Shown here one piece after another: positions 2,210 to 31,309 of a DNA stretch of 57,347 bases. The notes under the pieces are model-generated. The model had not been told where the DNA came from. It saw nothing but the letters and a program-made list of their open reading frames with translations, and did no database searches. Origin of the DNA: Polyangiaceae bacterium (lineage in GTDB: Bacteria > Myxococcota_A > Polyangia > Polyangiales > Polyangiaceae). Where the stretch lies: NCBI GenBank assembly GCA_023150915.1, contig JAKLKA010000034.1, positions 1 through 57,347 of the forward strand, written 5' to 3'. How positions within the stretch are numbered: position 1 is the first letter of the stretch; every line of letters begins with the position of its first letter. The position numbers and the translations under genes were made by a program.

Positions 2210-3852
2210 GGCGCCGAGTATTTGGTGCAGGGCCCTTCTTCGGGCGGGGTGCCTTCGACGGTCATCGGGCCTTTGCCACCGTGCTTGCGTCGCAGCGCTC
2301 GGCTCAGCGTGCGCCCGGCGGTGATCTCGGAGAGCACGTCCGCGCCCAGCGTGGGCGTGCGCTCGTAGGTCTGGTAGTCGACGCTGAAGAGGCCGAAGCG
2401 CGGCTCGAAGCCCTCGGCCCACTCGAAGTTGTCGAACAGGGACCAGTGGTAGTAGCCGCGCACGTCCACGCCCGCGTCCCGGGCGGCCTGGATGTGCTCG
2501 AGGGCGCGCACGATGTTCTCGGCCCGACGCTCGCCGACCAAGGTACCGATGCCGCCCTCGCTGACCACCAGCGGCAGCCCGGGGTAACGCTTGCCGAAGG
2601 CACCGAGCACCGTCTCGAGCCCCGGTGCATGGTGCTCGTACCCCATGGTCGGCACGCAATAGCTGCGATCGATGGGTGCGATGCACGAGCCGAAGTCGAA
2701 GCCCGAGAAGCAAGGGGTGAGCTTCAGCACCGGCAGCAGCCCGCCGCTGCCGGTGACGCCCGCGCGGAAGTAGTATTGCAAGCCCAACCAGTCGAGCTTG
2801 CCTTTGAAGTCGGGCCGGCTCTCTTCCAGCTTGCCGTCCAGATCGTTGTCGAACGCGCCCTCGATCAGCGCATCGACCAGCAGGTAGTGGAAGAAGAGCT
2901 GCAGGCGATCCCGCGCGGCCAAGTCTTCGGGATCTTCGCTCGGCTGGTTCTCGCGGGCGGGCACCCAATCCGCGACTGCCAGCGAAAACCCGACGCTGGC
3001 CGCTTCGCCGTCGCCGTCGGCATCGTGGGTGTCCGCCTTCTTCAGCGCGTCGTAGGCCGCCACGTGGCCCGAAAGGTAGTCGCGCACCACCGGCACGAAC
3101 TTCTCGGTCAAGGCCATCAGGTACGACTTGCCAGGCGGAAACATGCCCACACCGTGGGAGGCCACGAGATAGTTGATGGGCTCGTTGACCGTGCCAAAGT
3201 CGTCGACCCGATCACCGAACCGCTGCCCGATCAGCTGGGCGTGCTCCGCGAGCTCTTCGATCACCAGCGGGCCCCCCTGCGGGTGCCCGAAGCCGCACAG
3301 GTTGTCGTCCGTGGGCCCCTTGGCGCACTCGAGGTCGCGCGGGTCGTCCACCCACACGGGGTTCGAGAAGTGGTGCAGGGTTATCATCGGGCGGATCCCC
3401 TTGGCGATCAGCGTGTCGATGAACTTCCCGTACTGCGCCAGGGCGGCTTCGTCGATCTGGTCGCGCTTCGGCTCGACGCGGGCCCACTCGATGCTGAAGC
3501 GATACGAGTCGAGGCCGAGGCTCTCGATCAGCGCGACGTCGTCGAGCATCTTGGTCCAGCCCTTCGATGCGTCGCCGACGAAGGTGTGCTCGCCAAGCCC
3601 GCCCTGTGCCTTCGACTGCGTGAACAGGTACCAATCGGTGTTCGGGTTCTGATCTTCGATCTGCGTGGCGGCGCTGGCCGCGCCGAAGCGGAAGCTGCCC
3701 TTGCCGGCCTCGGTGCTCAGGCTCCCCGCAGCCGGGAACGCGATGTCGCTGCCGCCCTGGGCCGCCGGGTCCTCGCTGCCGCAACCCCCGCAGGCCAGGC
3801 CCAGGGCCAAACTTGCTCCAATCGCCAACCTGCACACCTGAACACCCGCCAT
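2206..3852 (-). CDS. Glycoside hydrolase family 1 (beta-glucosidase-like) lipoprotein
   Basis: A 548-residue GH1 enzyme with a signal sequence and a Cys near residue 21 (LGLACGGC), so probably a lipid-anchored or periplasmic enzyme. The (beta/alpha)8 barrel starts at about residue 50 (FRFGAASAATQIE). The acid/base Glu is E224 in TVNEP. The nucleophile is E432 in VVSEGGIG, where GH1 enzymes normally show I/V-T-E-N-G, so the Asn after the nucleophile is replaced. GYYHWSLFDNFEWAEGF near residue 475 is the typical GH1 aglycone/glycone-binding segment. It should hydrolyse beta-linked glucosides or related sugars outside the cytoplasm. It is the first gene of a pair with the downstream membrane protein (4-nt overlap). 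GH1 membership is secure; the substrate is not. Confidence 0.93.
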   Translation of the reverse strand: MAGVQVCRLAIGASLALGLACGGCGSEDPAAQGGSDIAFPAAGSLSTEAGKGSFRFGAASAATQIEDQNPNTDWYLFTQSKAQGGLGEHTFVGDASKGWTKMLDDVALIESLGLDSYRFSIEWARVEPKRDQIDEAALAQYGKFIDTLIAKGIRPMITLHHFSNPVWVDDPRDLECAKGPTDDNLCGFGHPQGGPLVIEELAEHAQLIGQRFGDRVDDFGTVNEPINYLVASHGVGMFPPGKSYLMALTEKFVPVVRDYLSGHVAAYDALKKADTHDADGDGEAASVGFSLAVADWVPARENQPSEDPEDLAARDRLQLFFHYLLVDALIEGAFDNDLDGKLEESRPDFKGKLDWLGLQYYFRAGVTGSGGLLPVLKLTPCFSGFDFGSCIAPIDRSYCVPTMGYEHHAPGLETVLGAFGKRYPGLPLVVSEGGIGTLVGERRAENIVRALEHIQAARDAGVDVRGYYHWSLFDNFEWAEGFEPRFGLFSVDYQTYERTPTLGADVLSEITAGRTLSRALRRKHGGKGPMTVEGTPPEEGPCTKYSAP

Positions 3853-3940
3853 GCTGGCCAGTTCTTTACCGCAGTTTTGCGGCTTTGGCCTGTCCGATGC
3901 CCTTTACGGCCCCGCGCGGAAGTGACAAACCTCAGGCGAG

Positions 3941-5527
3941 GTGGATCCCAAGACCGCGCTCGCGCCTGGCGTCGTCATCGCAGATCGGTTCCGCGTCGAC
4001 GAGACCATCACCTTCGAGGGTGCGGCGCCCGCTTTTCTGGCGACGGATCTCGAGACCGAGGGCCGGCTTCTGGTCTTCGAGACCACCCTGGCCGAGGCCG
4101 ACGCGCTGCGGCCGGGGGTCGCGGTGTCGCACCCGCACCTGGCCACGGTGGCCGGGCTGGTCGCCCACGGCGAGCGCGACGTGCTCCTGGCCCAGCACGA
4201 GCCCGGGCTCTCGCTCCCGGCGTTCACCGAGGGCAATACGTCCCTGTCCAAGGTCGACGCGGTGCGCTTCGCCCTGCGGATCTTCGACGCGGTTCAGGCC
4301 TTGCACCAGGCGGGCTCGGCCCACGGCTTCTTGCGCCCGGCCAGCATCGTCATGGAGCCGGAAGATCGTCCGCGCCCCGTGGTGGCGTTTGCCCCGGCTC
4401 CGCTGCAAGCATCGGCCTATCGCTCCCCCGAGCGGGGAGAGGGCGGCGCCCCATCCATCGCCGACGACGCTTGGGCGGCAGGCGCGCTCTTGTATCGCAT
4501 GCTGCTCGGCGCCGACCCACCCGCGAAGGGGCTGAGCACCGAAGACGACCTCGCCAGCGCGGGCGTGGACGATCCCTTGTTGCGGACCGCGCTCTTCCAC
4601 GCGCTGTGCGCCGACCCGTCTCGCCGCAGCGACACCTTGCAGCCCCTGCGGCGAGAGCTCGCGCGCTGGTTCTCGGACCACGCCGGCGATGGGTCGAGCC
4701 ACTCGAGCACGATGGGGCGCCCGCCGCCGCCACTGCCGGCGAACATCACCGGCCCGAGCGCCAGCCGGCCCCCGCCGCCGCCGATCTCGGGCGCTCCGCC
4801 GATCTCGCGCTCGACGGCCACCGAGCTCACCCCGCGCAAGAAGAAGTCCGGACCGCTGGTCTTCGCCGCCGTGGCCGCGGTGCTGGGCCTGGGCGCGGCC
4901 TGGGGCGTCTCGGCCTGGCGGTCGCGGCCGAAGGTCACGGTGATCACCACCTCGGCACCCCAGGAGGCGCCCGCGCCGACCGCGCCTTCGGCGGTCAGCT
5001 TGGGTGAGGTGGCCGTCACGGGCGAGAGCGAGGGCGACGGTGGCGCCGACCGCTCACTGTCCTGCGTCGCGGCGAACTTCCCGAAGGACACGTTCAAGAA
5101 GGCGCCTGATCTGCGCTGGCTGTGCGCAGAGTCGGACCCTCGGGCCGGCGGCGAGAAGCTGCGCGTGGCGGTGGTTCAGGGTGCCGCCGGCGGCGCGCCT
5201 TCGGAGGCGCAGCAGCTCTTCTCGAAGCTCGGGTGGCACGAGATGACCGCCTTCGGCGTGATCCACGCGAGCTGCTGCAACGAGCAACAACCCTTGAGCC
5301 TGCCCGAGCCGAGCCCGGGGTGCGAGCCGCTGGTCAAGGCCATCGACGGCATCGCCAAGGCCGTGACCGCCAAGCAGCCGATCGACGAAGCGCTGGCCGC
5401 GTTCGGCAAGGCGGCTCGCTGTGAAGCCGACGCGAAGAAGGCCGCGCAATACCGGCGCACGCAGGCCCCGCAGCCGAGCGAAGACGCGGCGCTCAAGGAT
5501 CTGCTGAAGAGCGTCTCTGCCCCCTGA
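3941..5527 (+). CDS. Membrane-anchored pseudokinase (degenerate Hanks-type kinase)
   Basis: A 528-residue protein from GTG 3941, preceded by AGGCGAG. Residues ~10-250 follow the Ser/Thr kinase fold (FRVDETITFEGAAPAFLATD, then SPHLATVAGLV, LALRIFDAVQALHQAGSAHGFLRPASIV, YRSPE, DDAWAAGALLYRMLLG). The catalytic residues are gone: the VAIK Lys is Thr (VFETT), HRDLKPxN reads HGFLRPAS (128-135), and DFG reads AFA. A Pro-rich linker (~265-300) leads to one transmembrane helix (~304-327). A C-terminal ~200-residue domain with Cys residues, including a CC pair, follows and probably lies outside the membrane. It likely binds or scaffolds rather than phosphorylates. The small membrane protein gene starts 15 nt downstream, so the two are probably co-transcribed. 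Confidence 0.85.
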   Translation: MDPKTALAPGVVIADRFRVDETITFEGAAPAFLATDLETEGRLLVFETTLAEADALRPGVAVSHPHLATVAGLVAHGERDVLLAQHEPGLSLPAFTEGNTSLSKVDAVRFALRIFDAVQALHQAGSAHGFLRPASIVMEPEDRPRPVVAFAPAPLQASAYRSPERGEGGAPSIADDAWAAGALLYRMLLGADPPAKGLSTEDDLASAGVDDPLLRTALFHALCADPSRRSDTLQPLRRELARWFSDHAGDGSSHSSTMGRPPPPLPANITGPSASRPPPPPISGAPPISRSTATELTPRKKKSGPLVFAAVAAVLGLGAAWGVSAWRSRPKVTVITTSAPQEAPAPTAPSAVSLGEVAVTGESEGDGGADRSLSCVAANFPKDTFKKAPDLRWLCAESDPRAGGEKLRVAVVQGAAGGAPSEAQQLFSKLGWHEMTAFGVIHASCCNEQQPLSLPEPSPGCEPLVKAIDGIAKAVTAKQPIDEALAAFGKAARCEADAKKAAQYRRTQAPQPSEDAALKDLLKSVSAP

Positions 5528-5542
5528 CGCGCGGCCCGAGCC

Positions 5543-5833
5543 ATGGCGGTCCTGTTGGTCAGCATCGAGCTGGCACTGGGGATCCTGGTGCCGTGGTGGA
5601 TCGTGCGTCGCGATCTGAAGAAGCTGGAAGGCGAGCGCCTGGCCCGAGCCTGGAACGACGCGAGCTTCTGGAGCGCGATCGTGCTGTTCGGGCCCCTCTC
5701 GCTGCCGTTTCACTTCACCAAGACGCGACGGTCGCTGCTCGGCTTCGTGCTCGGGCTCGTCTGGATGGTGGCCGCGTTTCTGGCGATCGGGCTCTTGGGT
5801 TCGGGGCTCGCGCTGCTGTTTGGCGTGGAGTGA
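5543..5833 (+). CDS. Small two/three-helix membrane protein
   Basis: A 96-residue protein with a hydrophobic N-terminal helix (LLVSIELALGILVPWWIV), a basic/amphipathic middle (RRDLKKLEGERLARAW) and two further hydrophobic stretches. I do not recognise the family. It starts 15 nt after the pseudokinase stop, so it is probably in the same transcript and may be its membrane partner (inference). Confidence 0.7.
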   Translation: MAVLLVSIELALGILVPWWIVRRDLKKLEGERLARAWNDASFWSAIVLFGPLSLPFHFTKTRRSLLGFVLGLVWMVAAFLAIGLLGSGLALLFGVE

Positions 5834-23454: not shown

Positions 23455-25152
23455 TCACCCCCCCAGCGCATCGAGAAAGGCGTGCACGGCGGCTTGCTCG
23501 AGATGGACGAGCACGACCACGAAATCTCCGGGCAGCGCCGCGTCGAAGACCGAGCGCAGGGCCTCGACCTCGGAGCTCACGGTTGCAACCGCCGCGAGCG
23601 GGAAGCCCAGCGCGGTGAGTGCGTGCTCGAACATTGCAGGCACCTCGCCGGGCGCTCGGCCTCGCAGGTAACCGGTCAGATCGCGCAGCAGCACGCGATG
23701 GGGCTGGGCTGCGCGAATCGCGCTCGCGACCTCGGCGATGTCGTGCTCGCTGCGATCGCCGGCGGCGCCCGCGACCACGATCAAGCGGCCGGGGCGATCG
23801 CGAAGAAGCTTGGCCGAGAGCTGCAGCACGCCGCGGATGCCCTCGGGATTGTGGCCGAAATCGAGCAACACGCGCACTCCGCTCCGCTCCAAGAGCTGGC
23901 CCCTCCGCGGATTGTCCGAGGGCTGGAAGGTGGTGAGGGCGCGAGCGATGGCGTCTTGCCCGATCCCGAGCGCCCGGGCCATGGCCACGCACGCGACGAC
24001 GTTCTCCACGTTGTAGCCCGCGGCGCCGCCGAAGGTGAGCGGCACGGCGGCGACATCGACGACGAGCTCCGCGCCGTCCAGGATCTTCCCGCCCTCCGCA
24101 GAGACCGTGCGTACGCCGCGAGCGCGTGCCCCTGCCATCACGGCACGTGCGGCGGGGTCGTCGCGATCGAGGTTGGCGAAGAAGACCACCGCTCGGTCCA
24201 AGCTCGACGCGAGCGCGACCAGCTTTTCGTCGTGAGCGTTCAGCACCACGGTGCCCGCCGGGCGCACGGCGTCGGCCACCACAGCCTTCACGCGCGTCAT
24301 GGCCGCCAGATCGTCGACGCCGTAGCTGCCAAGGTGGTCGTCGCTGACGTTGGTGATCAGTGCCGCGTCACAGCTCTCGACGGCCAGGCCGCGCCGGAGG
24401 ATGCCTCCGCGGGCCGTCTCGAGCACCGCGAAGTCGACGCCCGGGTCGCGGAGCACGATGCGCGCGGCTGCGGGTCCGGTCCAGTCGCCGCTCTGGACGA
24501 CCTTGGCTCCGATCGAGATCTCGTCGCTCGACGCGGCTCCGACGCGAAAGCCTGCCTCGCGCACCATGCGCGCCAGGAGGCGCGTGGAGGTCGTCTTGCC
24601 GTTGGTCCCGGTCACTAACATAACCGGGATCGCACCCAAGTCTTGCCAGGGCACGTCGGCCACGTCGGGGAGCGCGGCGCGCGGCCAGCACGCGGACCGC
24701 GACCCCTCGCCAATGCTGACCTGCTCGTCGTCCCAGAGTAGCGGAAGCGTTCGGCGCCTGGCCTCCGCCTGCAACGCCACGAGGCGCGGGCTCCGGTCGC
24801 GCTGGATCATCGCGCCGATCTCGCTCTGTTTCGGCTCGAGGGTGAGCGCCTGCCGCCCCGCCAGAAGCTCCGCGGCCGAGAGCGCCGCCCATTCGCTGAT
24901 CTCGGCGCACGCCAGCATCACGTCGATGGGGGCTTCGTACCCGATGACCGCTCCGCCTCGATGGATTTGTGACCTCAGCGCGACCTCGACGGAAAGGCCA
25001 AGCGCCGCCCGCATGCGAGAAAGCTCCCGCGAGTACGCATCGAGCACCGCGCCCGGGGACTCCGTGGCACCGAGCGCGACCTCCACGATCACCAGAGGCG
25101 CGCGCGAGAGCAGGTTCGGTCCAGTCAACCGGCGAGCGTCGAGCAGCTCCAT
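23455..25152 (-). CDS. CphA-like Mur-ligase protein lacking the ATP-grasp domain
   Basis: A 565-residue protein starting 11 nt after the cphA stop. Its N-terminus (MELLDARRLTGPNLLSRAPL) mirrors that of the adjacent CphA (MELLERRVYRGPSLYAHFPV). Residues 145-157 (VSIGEGSRSACWP) align with the IQFGHGKYQKR segment that precedes the ATP-grasp domain in CphA (198-208). Only ~25 residues later the Mur-ligase P-loop GTNGKTT begins (G182, K186), against G500 in CphA, so the ATP-grasp module is missing. The Mur part is complete: DEISIGAKVVQSGDWTGPAAARIVLRDP, VLETARGGILR, DDHLG, LLDFGHNPEGI, VVAGAAGDRS. It should form an amide bond by ATP-driven acyl phosphate chemistry, perhaps adding Arg or another amino acid to a beta-Asp end. 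This is not the CphA2 layout, which keeps ATP-grasp. Confidence 0.9.
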   Translation of the reverse strand: MELLDARRLTGPNLLSRAPLVIVEVALGATESPGAVLDAYSRELSRMRAALGLSVEVALRSQIHRGGAVIGYEAPIDVMLACAEISEWAALSAAELLAGRQALTLEPKQSEIGAMIQRDRSPRLVALQAEARRRTLPLLWDDEQVSIGEGSRSACWPRAALPDVADVPWQDLGAIPVMLVTGTNGKTTSTRLLARMVREAGFRVGAASSDEISIGAKVVQSGDWTGPAAARIVLRDPGVDFAVLETARGGILRRGLAVESCDAALITNVSDDHLGSYGVDDLAAMTRVKAVVADAVRPAGTVVLNAHDEKLVALASSLDRAVVFFANLDRDDPAARAVMAGARARGVRTVSAEGGKILDGAELVVDVAAVPLTFGGAAGYNVENVVACVAMARALGIGQDAIARALTTFQPSDNPRRGQLLERSGVRVLLDFGHNPEGIRGVLQLSAKLLRDRPGRLIVVAGAAGDRSEHDIAEVASAIRAAQPHRVLLRDLTGYLRGRAPGEVPAMFEHALTALGFPLAAVATVSSEVEALRSVFDAALPGDFVVVLVHLEQAAVHAFLDALGG

Positions 25153-25163
25153 GGCAGCGCCCT

Positions 25164-27986
25164 TCAGTCTTCTTGTTCGCGCGCCAGGCGCACACCGCGC
25201 TCGTCCTGGATCAGCTGAGCGCCCTCGATCAGATCACGTTCCCGTTCGAGGCCCGGGGCGCTGGCGCCGGGCACCGGGCCAGGGCTCGGGTCCGTGCTCG
25301 GCCCGGGCGCGGGCGGCGGGCTCGACCGCTCGGTGGATTCCGGCTTGAAGTAGATGACCTGCTTCCAGCTGCGCGAGATCATGTCGGCGAACACGACCAA
25401 CAGGTCACCGCGCTTGCTACGCTCGAGCGCGGCCGCGATGGCCGCCTGCTCGTCGGGGATGACCTCGATCTGCTCCGCGGGATAGCCGGCGAGCAGCAGC
25501 TCTTCCTGCATCATCAGCGGAACCTCGTCCGGCGCCCTGCCACGGAGATCGTCGTCCCGCCTCAAGATCAGGTGATCGAAGGCCTTGCCCGCGATCCGCG
25601 CCATGGCGCGAATGTCCTCGTCGCGACGATCACCGGGCCCCGCGAGCACGCAGATGCGGCGGCCGCTGCACTCGAGCTTCGACGCCAGGTCGGCCATCAC
25701 CTGCACCGCCGCCGGGTTGTGTGCATAGTCGAGGATCACCTTGAACGGCAGATCGTTGAACACGTTGGTGCGCCCCGGTACCTGGAAATACGAGGTGTCG
25801 AAGGTGCGCAGCCCCTGGCGGATGTTCTCGATCTTCACCCCCATGGCGTAGGCCATGACCGCGGCGAACATCGCGTTCTGGACGTTGTGGAGCGCCTTGC
25901 CCTCGAACGTCGCCGGGATCAGGTGGGTCCAGAGCAGGGGCAAATGCGCGCCCTTGTCGTAGAGCGTGATCATCTGACCGTTGATGCCCTCTTCGAGCAC
26001 GACCGCGAGCCCGCCGGCGCGCAGGTGCTGGCGGACCAGCTCGTGGCGCGGGTTCATCGTGACGTAGGCGATGCGCGCGGCGTGGGTGTGGTCGGCCATG
26101 CGCAGGCAGAGACGATCGTCGGCGTTCAGCACGGCGCAGTCGCGCGTGACCTCGACCACGATGCGCTTCACCTCTGCGAGCTGCTCGAGCGTGGTGACGC
26201 CCTTCGAGTCGAGGTGATCGGCCGTGACGTTCAGCACCGCGCCGACGTTGCAGCTGCGATAGCCCATGCCCGCGCGCAGCAGGCCACCGCGTGCCGTCTC
26301 GAGCACCGCGAGATCGACCGACGGATCCCTGAGCACCATCTGAGCCGAGCGGGGACCGGTCATGTCGCCCGCAACCGTGCGCTCGCCGTCGATGTAGACG
26401 CCGTCGGTGGTCGCCAGGCCGACCGTGTGCCCGTTCATCTTCTGGATGTGCGCCAGCATCCTCGCGGTGGTCGTCTTGCCGTTCGTGCCCGTGACGGCCG
26501 CGATGGGGATGCGAGAGGGCGCGCCCGGCGGAAACAGCGTGTCCATCACCGGCCCGGCCACGTCGCGCGACTTGCCCTCGGTGGGAGCGACGTGCATGCG
26601 GAACCCGGGTGCCGCATTGACCTCGCAGATCCCACCGCCGACCTCGCGATAGCTCTCGCTGACGTCCGGGGTGATGAAGTCGACCCCGCACACGTCCAGG
26701 CCGATGGCCTTGGCAGCGCGAATGACCATCTCGCGGTTGTCCGGGTGAACGACGTCCGTGAGATCGATGGCAGTGCCTCCGGTCGAGAGATTGCCGGTGC
26801 CCCGCAAGAAGAAGGTCTCGCCGCGGGGAAGCACCGTGTCCCTGGTGACGCCCTTGGCCTCCATCAGGCGCTCGGCCTGCGCGTCGAGCTCGATCCGCGT
26901 CAGAACCTTCTCGTGGCCGATGCCGCGGCGCGGATCGGCGTTCACCAGCTCGACCAGCGCCGCGATGCTGTGCTCGCCGTCGCCGACGACGTGGCCGGGA
27001 ACGCGCTTCGCCACCGCGACCAGCTCGCCCCCCACCACCAGCATGCGGTGATCGAACCCCGAGAGGAACGACTCGACGACGATGCTGCGGGCGTGCTCGC
27101 GCGCCTTCTCGAAGGCGGCGCGCACCTCGGCTTCAGTGCCCAGGTCGAGAGACACACCGCGCCCGTGGTTCGCGTCCAGGGGCTTGACCACGACGGGGTA
27201 GCCCAGGCGACGGGCGGCCCGGACGGCGCCGTCGGCGCTTCGCACCAGCTCCTGGCGCGGAACCGGCAGGCCGAGGTCACCGAGGATGCGGTTCGTCTCT
27301 TCCTTGTCGGAGGCGATGGAGACCGCGATGTGACGCGTCTCGCTGGTGACGGTGGCCTGGATCCGCTTCTGGTACTTGCCGTGCCCGAACTGGATCAGGC
27401 TGTAGTCGTTGAGCCGCATCCAGGGGATGTCGCGCGCCTCTGCGGCACGCACCAGCGCGCCCGTGGACGGGCCGAGCTGGCGCCGCTGCGCGAAAGCGAT
27501 GAGCTCGACCAGCTCTTTCTCGAAGTCGAAGGCTGGTTCTTCGGGGGCCTGGCTGGGTGCTCGCAGCTCTTCCGGGAGCAGGTGGTGGAGCAGCTTCAGC
27601 GCGAGCTCCCCGGCGGCCTCGGCCACGCGCTCTTCCTCGTATTCGTAGACGACGTGGTACCGGCCCGGCGTGCCCTCGCTGCGCGTCTTGCCGAACACGA
27701 CCTTCGCGCCCGTGAGCTGTTGCAGCTCGATGGCCACGTGCTCGAGCACGTGACCGAGCCAGGTTCCTCCGTCTTCGGTCAGCCGCCGGACGAAACCGCC
27801 TTCGGTACCGAAGGAACAGGTGTGGCTGGAGAGCGTTGGGATGGCCGCGAGCAGCCCCTGGTTGAAGCCGGGGATCTTCGCGCTGGGCCACGCTTCGAGC
27901 ACGCCGAGATCCACCGTCAGGCGAACGACCGGGAAGTGCGCATACAGGCTGGGGCCGCGGTAGACGCGGCGCTCGAGAAGTTCCAT
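25164..27986 (-). CDS. cphA: Cyanophycin synthetase
   Basis: A 940-residue three-domain enzyme that makes multi-L-arginyl-poly-L-aspartate from Asp, Arg and ATP without a ribosome. N-terminal domain ~1-160; ATP-grasp domain ~205-470 (adds Asp: YPVVVKPLDANHGRGV, GVDFITPD, ICEVNAAPGFRMH); Mur-ligase domain ~490-890 (adds Arg: GTNGKTT 500-506, MTGPRSAQMVLRDPSVDLAVLETARGG, DYAHNPAAV, LAGPGDRRDEDI). Length is slightly above the usual ~870-900 because of a Pro-rich C-terminal tail (SSPPPAPGPSTDPSPGP). Eight nucleotides separate it from cphB. Expected to be cytoplasmic and associated with insoluble granules. Confidence 0.96.
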   Translation of the reverse strand: MELLERRVYRGPSLYAHFPVVRLTVDLGVLEAWPSAKIPGFNQGLLAAIPTLSSHTCSFGTEGGFVRRLTEDGGTWLGHVLEHVAIELQQLTGAKVVFGKTRSEGTPGRYHVVYEYEEERVAEAAGELALKLLHHLLPEELRAPSQAPEEPAFDFEKELVELIAFAQRRQLGPSTGALVRAAEARDIPWMRLNDYSLIQFGHGKYQKRIQATVTSETRHIAVSIASDKEETNRILGDLGLPVPRQELVRSADGAVRAARRLGYPVVVKPLDANHGRGVSLDLGTEAEVRAAFEKAREHARSIVVESFLSGFDHRMLVVGGELVAVAKRVPGHVVGDGEHSIAALVELVNADPRRGIGHEKVLTRIELDAQAERLMEAKGVTRDTVLPRGETFFLRGTGNLSTGGTAIDLTDVVHPDNREMVIRAAKAIGLDVCGVDFITPDVSESYREVGGGICEVNAAPGFRMHVAPTEGKSRDVAGPVMDTLFPPGAPSRIPIAAVTGTNGKTTTARMLAHIQKMNGHTVGLATTDGVYIDGERTVAGDMTGPRSAQMVLRDPSVDLAVLETARGGLLRAGMGYRSCNVGAVLNVTADHLDSKGVTTLEQLAEVKRIVVEVTRDCAVLNADDRLCLRMADHTHAARIAYVTMNPRHELVRQHLRAGGLAVVLEEGINGQMITLYDKGAHLPLLWTHLIPATFEGKALHNVQNAMFAAVMAYAMGVKIENIRQGLRTFDTSYFQVPGRTNVFNDLPFKVILDYAHNPAAVQVMADLASKLECSGRRICVLAGPGDRRDEDIRAMARIAGKAFDHLILRRDDDLRGRAPDEVPLMMQEELLLAGYPAEQIEVIPDEQAAIAAALERSKRGDLLVVFADMISRSWKQVIYFKPESTERSSPPPAPGPSTDPSPGPVPGASAPGLERERDLIEGAQLIQDERGVRLAREQED

Positions 27987-27994
27987 CGGAGTCC

Positions 27995-28822
27995 TCAGTC
28001 AGCGCGCGGCGACGCGCGCCGGGTTTCGAGATCGAAGGTGCCCCCTTCGATCAACACGTGCAGCCGAACGTTCGTCATACACACGGGATGGCCCTGCTTC
28101 GCCTCGGCTATGGACGAGTGTCCGAGCTCGGAGGCGTCGATGATGGTGAGCGCGCCCGTCCCCACCACGGTGAGGTTGCGCTCGTGGTCGATGAACGCGG
28201 CGGTGTCCTCGTCGAGACCGATCCCCACGGCGAAGGGATTGTAGGCCAGCGCCGTGAGCAGGCGGCCCAGCCGATCGCGCTGGCGAAAGTGCTGATCGAT
28301 CACGAAGCGGTTCGTGAGACCGAAGCCCGGCACGAGCGCCACGGCACCAGCGTGGGGGGAGTGACCCTCCGCGCCGAAGGCGATCATGTGCTCGCTCAGG
28401 ATGGCAGCCCCGGCGCTGGTGCCAGCGACGGCGACGCCGCGGGCGTTCGCGCGGCGAATGGCCTGCGCCACCGGCGTCCCGCCTAGAATGGTCGTCAGCC
28501 GCAGCTGATTGCCGCCGGTGACGAAGATGCCGTCCGCCGCCTCGATGTAGTCGAGCCACTCGCGCTTGGCCGCGTCGTCACGCGAAGCCAGGGGAAGGGC
28601 CTTGGCCTCGTCCGCGCCCAGCTTGCGGAACAAGCGCTCGTAGCGGCGCCCCGTGTCCTCGAGCTTCGAGGCGGTGGGGATGATCACGATGCGCGAGCCC
28701 TCACCGCCCGAGACGTCCAGGAACCGGCGCAGGATGCTGGCCACGCCTTCCTTGTCTTCCGCGCCGCCGATGGGGACGATGTAGCCCCGCTTGTCGTCAC
28801 CCTCGATCTTCGCTGGGCTCAT
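27995..28822 (-). CDS. cphB: Cyanophycinase
   Basis: A 275-residue serine exopeptidase of family S51 that releases beta-Asp-Arg dipeptides from cyanophycin. The nucleophile is S136 in the elbow GTSAGAA; GYIVPIGGAEDKE at the N-terminus, FVTGGNQLRLT and GIGLDEDTAAFI are family signatures. Length is normal (~270). ATG 28822 overlaps the stop of the upstream dipeptidase gene (28819-28822). Without a signal peptide it acts in the cytoplasm on stored polymer. Confidence 0.95.
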   Translation of the reverse strand: MSPAKIEGDDKRGYIVPIGGAEDKEGVASILRRFLDVSGGEGSRIVIIPTASKLEDTGRRYERLFRKLGADEAKALPLASRDDAAKREWLDYIEAADGIFVTGGNQLRLTTILGGTPVAQAIRRANARGVAVAGTSAGAAILSEHMIAFGAEGHSPHAGAVALVPGFGLTNRFVIDQHFRQRDRLGRLLTALAYNPFAVGIGLDEDTAAFIDHERNLTVVGTGALTIIDASELGHSSIAEAKQGHPVCMTNVRLHVLIEGGTFDLETRRASPRAD

Positions 28823-30012
28823 CTGACTCTTCTCGCTGGTGGCCCCTCGAATGTACCGAAAGCAATCGGCTCGCCGGAGCGAACCAGGAACCGTCCGCGG
28901 GCCATCACCTCGCGTATGCGATGGCTGTCGTCAAGGACAACGAGATCGGCGTCCGAGCCGACGAAAATCCGGCCCTTGCGCGCGAGGCGCAGGGCGTCGG
29001 CGACGTTCGCGGTGAACACCGGCAGCACCCGCTCGAGCGCCTGGCCGCTCTCGAGCAGGGCTGCCAGGGTCTCGGCCAGGGCGCCGGGGGAGCCGACGTC
29101 CATGGCCGCCACGCGGCCGTCGGCATCGAACGTCGGCAGGCATCCGCCACCATCGGAGCTCACCGTCAGCCGCGCGTGCGGCGCGCCCGACTCGCAGTAC
29201 GCAGCGATGGCGTCGGCGGCCGAGAGCGCGTCTTCCCCCTCGGCCACGGGGAACGCGGTAACGTCGATGCACGAGCCCCGCCGCGCCAGCTCGAGCGCTT
29301 CAGCAAACAAGCCCCGCTTCCGGTTGACGTGCGTCGGGTAGAGCACGCGCGCGGGGAGCTCCGTGTCGCCCAGCAGGCGGCGGACGGGCTCGAGCCCGCG
29401 CGGGCCGTCACCCAGGTGCAAGTGCAACACGCCGGCCTTTCCGCTCATCAGCCCGGCGACGTGACAGTCCGCGGCCAGGCGCGCCAGCTCGTCCAGTGTG
29501 GGCTGGGACGAGCGGTGATCGCTGATCGCGACCTCGCCGGCGCCGATGATCGGATCGACGAAGACGATGTCCGACCGCACGCTGCCGGTCAGCGTCACGG
29601 GGGGAACCTGATAGCCCCCGGTCCAGCACCAGGCCGACAGCCCCAGCTCGCGCAGGGCGAGCGTCGATGCCACGAGCCCAGCGACCGATCGCGTCGTGCA
29701 GTCCGTGCCGAGCACGCCGACCACACTCGTGACGCCCCCTCGCGTGAGCTGGGTGAGCGCGACCTCCGGGACCCGCGAGGCCGGCCCCGACTCCCCACCA
29801 CCACCGGTGACGTGCACGTGCGCGTCGATCAGACCGGGGATCACCCGCGCCCCGCCCAGATCGACGACCTCACACAGGCTGGGATCGATCGCGGGCGGCT
29901 CGACCTGGACAGCCAAGATGCGCCCGCCACCCACCAGCACGTGGCACGGGCCGCGCGGCTCGGGGGCGAACAGCCGGGCATTCCTGAGCAGCGTGAGAGG
30001 CAACGACGCCAC
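28819..30012 (-). CDS. iadA: Isoaspartyl dipeptidase (beta-aspartyl-peptidase)
   Basis: A 397-residue amidohydrolase-fold enzyme. Metal site H65-x-H67 in LIDAHVHVTGGGGE, the GKAGVLHLHLGDG segment, YPTHVNR, and SSDGGG near residue 265 match IadA. It splits beta-Asp dipeptides; in this operon the natural substrate would be beta-Asp-Arg from CphB, giving free Asp and Arg. I chose GTG 30012 (preceded by GAAGG) because it gives the normal family length; the frame is open about 118 codons further upstream, but that part is antisense to the MFS gene and lacks family features. First gene of the cyanophycin operon. Confidence 0.92.
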   Translation of the reverse strand: MASLPLTLLRNARLFAPEPRGPCHVLVGGGRILAVQVEPPAIDPSLCEVVDLGGARVIPGLIDAHVHVTGGGGESGPASRVPEVALTQLTRGGVTSVVGVLGTDCTTRSVAGLVASTLALRELGLSAWCWTGGYQVPPVTLTGSVRSDIVFVDPIIGAGEVAISDHRSSQPTLDELARLAADCHVAGLMSGKAGVLHLHLGDGPRGLEPVRRLLGDTELPARVLYPTHVNRKRGLFAEALELARRGSCIDVTAFPVAEGEDALSAADAIAAYCESGAPHARLTVSSDGGGCLPTFDADGRVAAMDVGSPGALAETLAALLESGQALERVLPVFTANVADALRLARKGRIFVGSDADLVVLDDSHRIREVMARGRFLVRSGEPIAFGTFEGPPARRVR

Positions 30013-30082
30013 GCTGCCTTCTAGATCACCGCCGGCGTTTCGGCGACAGTATTCGCGACGGCCCCTGCTAGGCTCGCGCACC

Positions 30083-31309
30083 TTGGCCCGACAGAGCCGG
30101 CGCTCCGCCGCGATGCCGTTCGTGATGATCGCGGTGCTGATCGACATGGTGTCGATCGGCCTGATCGTGCCCGTGCTCCCGCTCTTGGTGGGCTCTTTCA
30201 CCTCTTCGCCGGCTGAGCAGTCGTTCTGGTACGGCGTGGTCGCCCTGGCGTTCGGCAGCGCCAACTTCTTTGCGTCGCCGCTGCTGGGCGCGCTGTCGGA
30301 TGCGCACGGGCGTAGACCGGTGATGCTGCTCGGCTTCGGGGCGCTTGCGCTCACCTTCTTCGCCACTGCCTTCGCGACCGAGCTCTGGATGCTGATCGTG
30401 GCGCGCGCGATCGGCGGCGCGATGCAGGCGAACGTCTCGGTCGCGCACGCCTACGTGGCCGACATCACGCCCCCAGAGGACCGGGCACGGCGCTTCGGGA
30501 TGCTGGGCGCGATGTTCGGGATCGGGTTCATCCTGGGCCCCGTGCTCGGAGGGTTCCTCGGGGCGATCCGCTTGCAGCTTCCGTTTCTGGTCGCCGGCAC
30601 CCTCGCCATCGCCAACCTGGCCTACGGAGTGCTCGTCGTGCCCGAGTCCTTGGCACGCGACGACCGGCGGGCGTTCACCTGGAACAACGTGACCCCGCTC
30701 GGATCGCTCAGGGCACTGGCTCGGCTCGAGGGCGTGGGCGGCCTGGTCACGGTGATCGCGTGCAGCGGCCTCGCACAGTTCGTGACCTACACGACCTGGG
30801 TGCTGTACTCGAAGTTCAAGTTCGGCTGGGGCCCGCGTGAAAACGGCTGGGCGCTCGCCGCCTTCGGCCTTGCCTCGGTGATCGGTCAGGGCTTCCTGCT
30901 CGGGCGCCTCTTGAAGGTCTTCTCTCCGCGGCGACTGGCGCTGTTCGGCCTGGTGTCGTCGACGCTGGCCTACGCTGCCTTCGGCGCAGTCACCGAAGGC
31001 TGGATGCTCTTCGTGGTGATCGCGCTGAACCTACTCGGGACCACCGTGGCGGCAAACATGCAGAGCATCGTCTCCGGCGCCGCGAGCGCTCAGAACCAGG
31101 GCCAGACCATGGGCGCGGTGAGCTCTCTGAACAGTCTGACGGCTGTCTTCGCCCCCGCGCTGGCGGGTCCACTGATGGCGATGGTCTCGCACTACCCGCG
31201 CGGGGACGTGCGCATGGGCGCGCCGTTCTTCTTCTGCGCGCTGCTCCAGGGCGCTGCGTTCGTGCTGGCGGCGCGGCACTTCCGCCGGGAGCTTGCGGCG
31301 GAGCGCTAG
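30083..31309 (+). CDS. MFS transporter, TetA-like
   Basis: A 408-residue transporter with 12 predicted helices. Signature loop 2-3 motif [16 protein letters not shown] and the TetA-type continuation [54 protein letters not shown] identify the drug:H+ antiporter-1 (TCR/Tet) group. Start taken as TTG 30083 so that charged residues precede helix 1; ATG 30113 ([11 protein letters not shown]) is the alternative. Divergent from the cyanophycin operon with only ~70 bp between starts, so promoters overlap. Substrate unknown. Confidence 0.9.

Follow-up and report, generated by a model that had tools for sequence, protein, structure and literature searches.

Why does an operon for cyanophycin, a nitrogen-storage polymer of bacteria, end in a second, shorter relative of the full-length synthetase that it already encodes? 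The question is raised by a stretch of 57,347 nucleotides from a Polyangiaceae bacterium (assembly GCA_023150915.1, contig JAKLKA010000034.1), hereafter the window, in which four genes follow one another in the same direction in the order iadA-cphB-cphA1-partner. The final gene of the run, here called the partner, is the one singled out by the original prediction; its open reading frame is real and lies on the minus strand.

28819..29997 (start approximate; the mechanical open reading frame extends to 30366), minus strand: iadA, isoaspartyl dipeptidase IadA (TIGR01975, 406.1 bits, cut-off 331.25)
27995..28822, minus strand: cphB, cyanophycinase CphB, 275 aa (TIGR02069, 262 bits, cut-off 126.6)
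25164..27986, minus strand: cphA1, full CphA1, 940 aa (TIGR02068, 1144 bits, cut-off 850)
23455..25152, minus strand: partner gene, ligase-only CphA paralogue of 565 aa, with an N-like domain, a pre-ATP-grasp remnant and a Mur ligase domain

The genes are tightly packed: iadA and cphB overlap by 4 nt, and the ATG of the partner lies 11 nt past the cphA1 stop and is preceded by an AAGGG-like ribosome site. The operon thus comprises cyanophycin synthesis, both degradation steps and the partner. Divergent from iadA, on the plus strand of the window (29615-31306), lies an MFS transporter of the Tet-efflux type, which scores under the family cut-offs.

The architecture of the partner can be read in three parts.

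24838..25152, minus strand: N-like CphA domain in a shorter form, residues 1-105, lacking the HxxEH zinc site (hhalign E=5e-5 on its own)
24685..24789, minus strand: remnant of the pre-ATP-grasp segment, residues ~122-156 (hhalign E=2.5e-5 against CphA1 columns 141-194)
23507..24639, minus strand: Mur ligase domain, M core plus lid, residues 172-548 (TIGR02068 positions 476-853, 339.9 bits, under the CphA1 cut-off of 850; Pfam Mur_ligase_M and Mur_ligase_C)

Mur_ligase_M (63.1 bits, cut-off 24) and Mur_ligase_C (48.3 bits, cut-off 28.4) are the sole Pfam families found; at E<=1 the search returned neither an ATP-grasp family nor PF18921, the CphA N domain. The N-terminal homology becomes visible in profile-profile comparison (hhalign), where approximately the first 150 residues are collinear with CphA1 columns 1-194 (E=8.6e-8; the reversed control gave 0.098 and 20 shuffles all gave 0.11 or worse). 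The pre-ATP-grasp segment has its own control, with 10 shuffles all at 0.029 or worse; the value for residues 1-105 has no shuffles of its own. The match to CphA1 picks up again at column 453, which leaves columns ~195-452 absent from the partner. It had been proposed that the protein lost exactly the ATP-grasp domain while keeping the segments on either side. The retention of the CphA N-terminal and pre-ATP-grasp segments is borne out by these alignments, and the ATP-grasp domain is indeed missing between homologous flanks, but "exactly" needs a slight correction: the N part is also ~40-50 residues shorter than that of CphA1, and its zinc motif is gone. HxxEH occurs in the first 150 residues of none of 59 short proteins (55 partners and 4 other short paralogues); Cx18-23HxxEH is present in 114 of the 135 distinct N segments of CphA1. 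In CphA1, this zinc-protease motif of the N domain gives rise to primers, and its Cx19HxxEH form, found in 83% of CphA1s, is common but not universal (PMC9262961).

Structure prediction, the check named for a hidden ATP-grasp domain, turned up none. An AlphaFold model built from 51 sequences (mean pLDDT 96.0, pTM 0.94) contains no such domain, and its alignment to CphA1 skips the G domain. The best Foldseek chain is CphA1 7lg5_A (E=1.6e-39), and VIA-align matches 541-545 of the 565 residues to four solved CphA1 chains, spanning residues 1-871 of CphA1 (Z 36.3-39.0). Against eight CphA1 chains Z ranges from 29 to 40; the top row by Z is 7wae_C, at 40.3 with 402 residues matched. A CphA1 G-domain model likewise gave zero matches to the protein, and together with the Pfam search and the AlphaFold model and alignment this rules out a hidden ATP-grasp domain. 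Sequence and model together show a CphA paralogue in which the N and M parts and a Mur-type active site are retained, and from which both ATP-grasp, the domain that lengthens the backbone, and the N-domain protease motif are missing.

Is that active site intact? Two of its elements lie as follows.

24592..24609, minus strand: P-loop GTNGKT, residues 182-187, within TGTNGKTT (181-188); K186 corresponds by motif to K499 of TeCphA1
24334..24339, minus strand: predicted catalytic D272-H273, corresponding by motif to D585-H586 of SuCphA1 (D in 54/55 partners, H in 55/55)

The P-loop is where it had been placed, at residue 182. In TeCphA1, K499, T500, T522, E558, R731 and H748 contact ATP or Mg, and K499A impairs the enzyme (PMC9427784); in SuCphA1, the double substitution D585A H586A abolishes M-domain activity (PMC9262961). 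Partner residues were matched by motif and spacing to K499, T500, E558, R731 and H748 of TeCphA1 and to D585/H586 of SuCphA1. Eleven positions (K186, T187, E245, H273, K289, N384, R417, D431, H434, G465 and R467) are invariant in all 55 partners, D272 and D466 are kept in 54, and residue 209, the equivalent of TeCphA1 T522, is S or T in 55/55. On these grounds we strongly infer ligase chemistry for the partner. One apparent motif proved misleading: DNPRRG (residues 413-418) resembles the DNPR motif of MurE by coincidence of position and aligns with the PGR motif before D..HN.

The acceptor side points to the same substrate as CphA1. A cyanophycin analogue at the CphA1 M site sits between the N domain and the M core (PMC9427784), and these are precisely the two parts that the partner keeps. 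The partner and CphA1 also have in common the motifs GD.[TS]GP..A and ETARGG..R. Both presumably face the acceptor, as in MurE.

A search for proteins with N and Mur ligase parts and no ATP-grasp domain yielded 55 distinct partners (52 from Myxococcota, 2 from Acidobacteriota and 1 from Lysobacter), with four other short paralogues set aside. Fifty of the 55 start directly downstream of a CphA1 gene on the same strand, with gaps of 49 nt or less in 48 of the 50, including 14 overlaps (starts picked by script). The remaining five comprise one whose CphA1 is cut by a contig end (L049), two without an adjoining CphA1 (L185, L186) and two from one genus (g12; L029, L144), which are convergent to cphB and not downstream of a detected cphA1. 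With architecture, catalytic residues and adjacency all conserved, the idea of a ligase-only partner of full CphA1 is supported. In 58 partner loci, many of which run into a contig end, cphB (34), iadA (23) and an MFS transporter (18) recur as neighbours in addition to cphA1, and this survey gave no clue to the substrate beyond these three.

A full-length match to the partner (49-100% identity) is present in 8 of 59 related genomes, that of the window included. In a scan of the phylum (377 genomes), 87 have a CphA-family match at E<=1e-40, and in 51 of these the match reaches the N region of the partner. Among named genomes, the best 80 of 414 loci include full-length matches in four: two Acidobacteriota, Lysobacter sp. 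Root916 and Plesiocystis pacifica. In the family to which this Lysobacter belongs, 26 of 119 genomes have a CphA-family match, and 24 of the 26 have both CphA1 and partner. In the phylum of one of the Acidobacteriota genomes there is a match in 19 of 199 and a partner in 7 of the 19 (one partial, one in two pieces). Plasmids carry the pair as well: among 22 plasmid records with a match, four reach a query coverage of 80% or more (two from Ruegeria, one from Shinella and one named Roseateles, marked UNVERIFIED), and all four have the order cyanophycinase, cphA and "Mur ligase family protein", the only annotation the partner receives. On the two Ruegeria plasmids (L211 and L212, ~3000-5700), genes for a saccharopine dehydrogenase-like protein and an aldehyde dehydrogenase precede the cyanophycinase-cphA-partner run, a possible link to lysine metabolism.

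The trees indicate an old paralogue family rather than a copy of the adjoining cphA1 that recently lost a segment. In an M-domain tree, 33 partners form one clade (SH-aLRT 98), and all 54 CphA1s used form a separate clade (97) together with a short protein from Duganella. In a second tree, 20 partners again form one clade (98), joined by an actinobacterial ligase-only family (97.7) whose place in the first tree is unresolved; here the CphA1s are not one clade when left free, and constraining them to monophyly is not rejected (p-AU 0.581). In a tree of the G and M domains of 101 CphA1s, a single clade (70 rows, support 100) takes in all 52 that have a partner in their locus. This clade has 69 distinct rows: 52 with the partner, two whose partner is on a different contig or cut short, ten without it and five, at contig ends, that could not be judged. 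One genome outside this clade (G301) has an unlinked partner (L186). The simplest history is that one CphA1 lineage gained the partner, that the pair spread to several phyla and that a few lineages lost the partner. The trees themselves are indecisive as to whether ATP-grasp was lost or gained, with a long outgroup branch (1.4-1.5) and with CphA1s and partners in separate clades in the M-domain tree; loss, not gain, is suggested by the remnant of the pre-ATP-grasp segment. Selection is purifying, with dN/dS of 0.27 and 0.26 for the partner against two close relatives, compared with 0.10 and 0.10 for cphA1; three other partner pairs gave 0.09, 0.13 and 0.42.

If ATP site and acceptor side are those of CphA1, what about the incoming amine? 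In S. aureus MurE, Asp-406 in the DNPA motif and Glu-460, which lies on a later loop, hold the amino group of the lysine (PMC3829189). The donor pocket of the partner was placed by alignment to MurE (a MurE-like protein of the window's genome), with an uncertainty of one or two residues; the donor loops could be read in 53 of 55 partners and 109 of 118 CphA1s. Three elements stand out.

23749..23760, minus strand: GDR plus S468, the first donor-side element; the residue after GDR is R in CphA1 and S/T in partners
23656..23685, minus strand: loop R-D-L-T-G-Y-L-R-G-R on the donor side, residues 490-499, which the alignment places close to the MurE DNPR motif
23503..23505, minus strand: H550, at a position close to the C-terminal end of the M domain where CphA1 has a conserved acid (H in 49/55 partners; D/E in 52/54 CphA1)

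R follows GDR in 103 of 109 CphA1 loops, and S or T follows it in 45 of 53 partner loops. The spacing from GDR to RGR is 32 in all but one of the 53 partner loops, as against 30 in 101/109 CphA1 loops, and a Y or H stands two before RGR in 49/53 partners. Four before RGR, D or E is found in 107/109 CphA1s versus 11/53 partners, and an acid is present among three donor-loop positions in 108/109 versus 20/53. The first R of RGR is kept in 51/55 partners; R254, invariant in partners, is present in 6/54 CphA1s. At the level of sequence, the predicted donor pocket has been rebuilt, with a longer loop and a His in place of a conserved acid. Two broader formulations did not survive. Relative to CphA1-CphA1 pairs, the lid taken whole shows no more divergence than the core does (ratio 0.777 against 0.786), and the differences are confined to specific elements. 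A simple loss of the acid from the donor loop is weakened by a D or E six before RGR in 44/53 partners; the longer loop may shift the acid into the same place, and the donor may still be basic. A changed donor is suggested by the conserved remodelling of those elements that align with the loops through which MurE binds its amino acid; that the donor is something other than a basic amino acid is a guess from sequence.

Taken together, these features would make the partner a ligase dedicated to cyanophycin side chains, encoded in the operon and acting in trans. It would bind ATP, phosphorylate the free beta-carboxylate of the C-terminal Asp on a cyanophycin chain, i.e., the acceptor of the CphA1 M domain, and then join an amine to this carboxylate, adding no Asp itself. 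With less weight, the incoming amine would not be Arg, or not only Arg, and the outcome would be a cyanophycin that is side-chain-edited, completed or end-capped. We favour this reading, in which a separate side-chain ligase works in trans on the chain end used by the CphA1 M domain, perhaps with another amine donor, at a little under an even chance. The original prediction that the protein could add Arg or a different amino acid to beta-Asp chains agrees with the acceptor and ATP motifs that it retains. The changed donor-side loops favour a different one but do not prove it. Capping or repair of polymer ends, which the prediction also named, is conceivable. The more specific version, in which a non-Arg amino acid or amine, possibly non-basic, is coupled to the chain-end beta-carboxylate to give a mixed or capped polymer and not textbook Asp-Arg in many Myxococcota, some Acidobacteriota, relatives of Lysobacter and some Alphaproteobacteria, is put forward tentatively and is rather unlikely.

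The partner might instead catalyse the same reaction as the CphA1 M domain, adding Arg to bare chain ends and so raising rate or fidelity as a repair or finishing ligase. This is possible, if somewhat unlikely. The acceptor and ATP motifs and the operon are the same as for CphA1, an intact CphA1 adjoins, and the acid six before RGR would suit a basic donor; however, donor-side residues conserved in CphA1 are changed in a way that is itself conserved (loop length, the Y/H and His550), which would be needless in a pure duplicate. Another possibility is a ligase whose substrate is a free beta-aspartyl dipeptide or some other small beta-carboxylate, and which might for instance turn CphB and IadA products back into beta-Asp peptides. 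It would make sense of the degradative genes in this operon and at many other partner loci, but such an enzyme would have no need for the N-like part, which is kept and which in CphA1 binds the polymer together with the M core; we consider it improbable.

The remaining explanations deny the partner an activity of its own. Strict adjacency to cphA1 and the faster evolution of the partner would suit a catalytically silent subunit or regulator of CphA1, yet the P-loop Lys, E245, H273, K289, R417, D431 and H434 are all without exception among the 55 partners, which makes this very improbable. The resemblance to CphA1 minus one segment could also suggest a truncated or decaying copy without function. 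This is scarcely credible for a protein with 55 orthologues without active-site loss, a single clade in both trees and purifying selection, and a pseudogene or truncated copy of cphA1 is ruled out by the conservation, the tree clades and the dN/dS values.

Older literature exists on second cphA genes in proteobacteria. In the literature searched, with most subscription journals outside its coverage, no description of a CphA relative without ATP-grasp and no account of the partner was found, in keeping with its having been called undescribed. Cyanophycin is presented as the product of one enzyme, CphA1 or CphA2 (PMC10206079), and for Lysobacter capsici the available portion of one report describes a two-gene cyanophycinase-synthetase cluster and names no third gene (PMC4742617). 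Given that the pairing recurs in several phyla, the partner may represent an overlooked step in cyanophycin synthesis. If a conserved second ligase does act in the cyanophycin operons of at least three phyla, then the polymer or its synthesis differs there, and the partner would provide a natural ligase-only module for producing side-chain-modified cyanophycin.

How does the partner compare with known systems? With MurE and the pseudomurein ligase pMurE it has in common the Mur ligase fold and ATP site; its N-terminal part is CphA-like. Peptidoglycan MurE identity is ruled out by scores far under the NCBIfam cut-offs (TIGR01085, 87.3 versus 257.3 bits; PRK00139.1-4, 90.8 versus 373). A Mur-type amide ligase acting on a polymer is also found in PgsB, the poly-gamma-glutamate synthase, to whose model the partner scores 17.7 bits (cut-off 222.7).

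Other reduced or duplicated CphA relatives exist. On a Deinococcus deserti plasmid, one (L214, 6990-9194) is largely missing its G or M part, and on a plasmid of Deinococcus KNUC1210 (L215, 6510-9180) the G or M part of another is interrupted and split over two annotated genes. A convergent short paralogue in Duganella (L098, 7331-9433) has no N-domain match, retains a G fragment and is closest to its own CphA1. In the second tree the short, G-poor proteins of D. deserti and Duganella pair with full CphA1s and not with partners, and they look like independent cases. One Myxococcota family (f30) has tandem CphA-like pairs with a G domain (L188-L190, L198, L199), one copy per pair having a weak N-domain match. 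Closer to the partner are three actinobacterial ligase-only paralogues (L091, L093, L108), which also have no G domain and in all three cases have the Y-LRGR loop and the C-terminal His; unlike the partner they are convergent to cphA1, and a pre-ATP-grasp remnant is not clearly seen in these three sequences. Two of them have a long C-terminal extension, and in one order 9 of 119 genomes, counting the query genome, have a match.

CphA2, the cyanobacterial beta-Asp-Arg polymerase, is likewise a CphA relative specialised to one active site, in its case the ATP-grasp G domain, with M lost; the partner has no G and has kept M. Re-ligation of beta-Asp-Arg dipeptides, which had also been suggested, is less likely for a protein from which that domain is absent. 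CphA2 polymerises these dipeptides with a single active site (PMC10206079). The partner is like CphA1 (TIGR02068; PDB 7LG5, 7LGQ, 7WAE) in its N-M arrangement, Mur-type active site and operon context, and differs from it in having neither the ATP-grasp G domain nor the HxxEH zinc motif and in its different donor-side loops.
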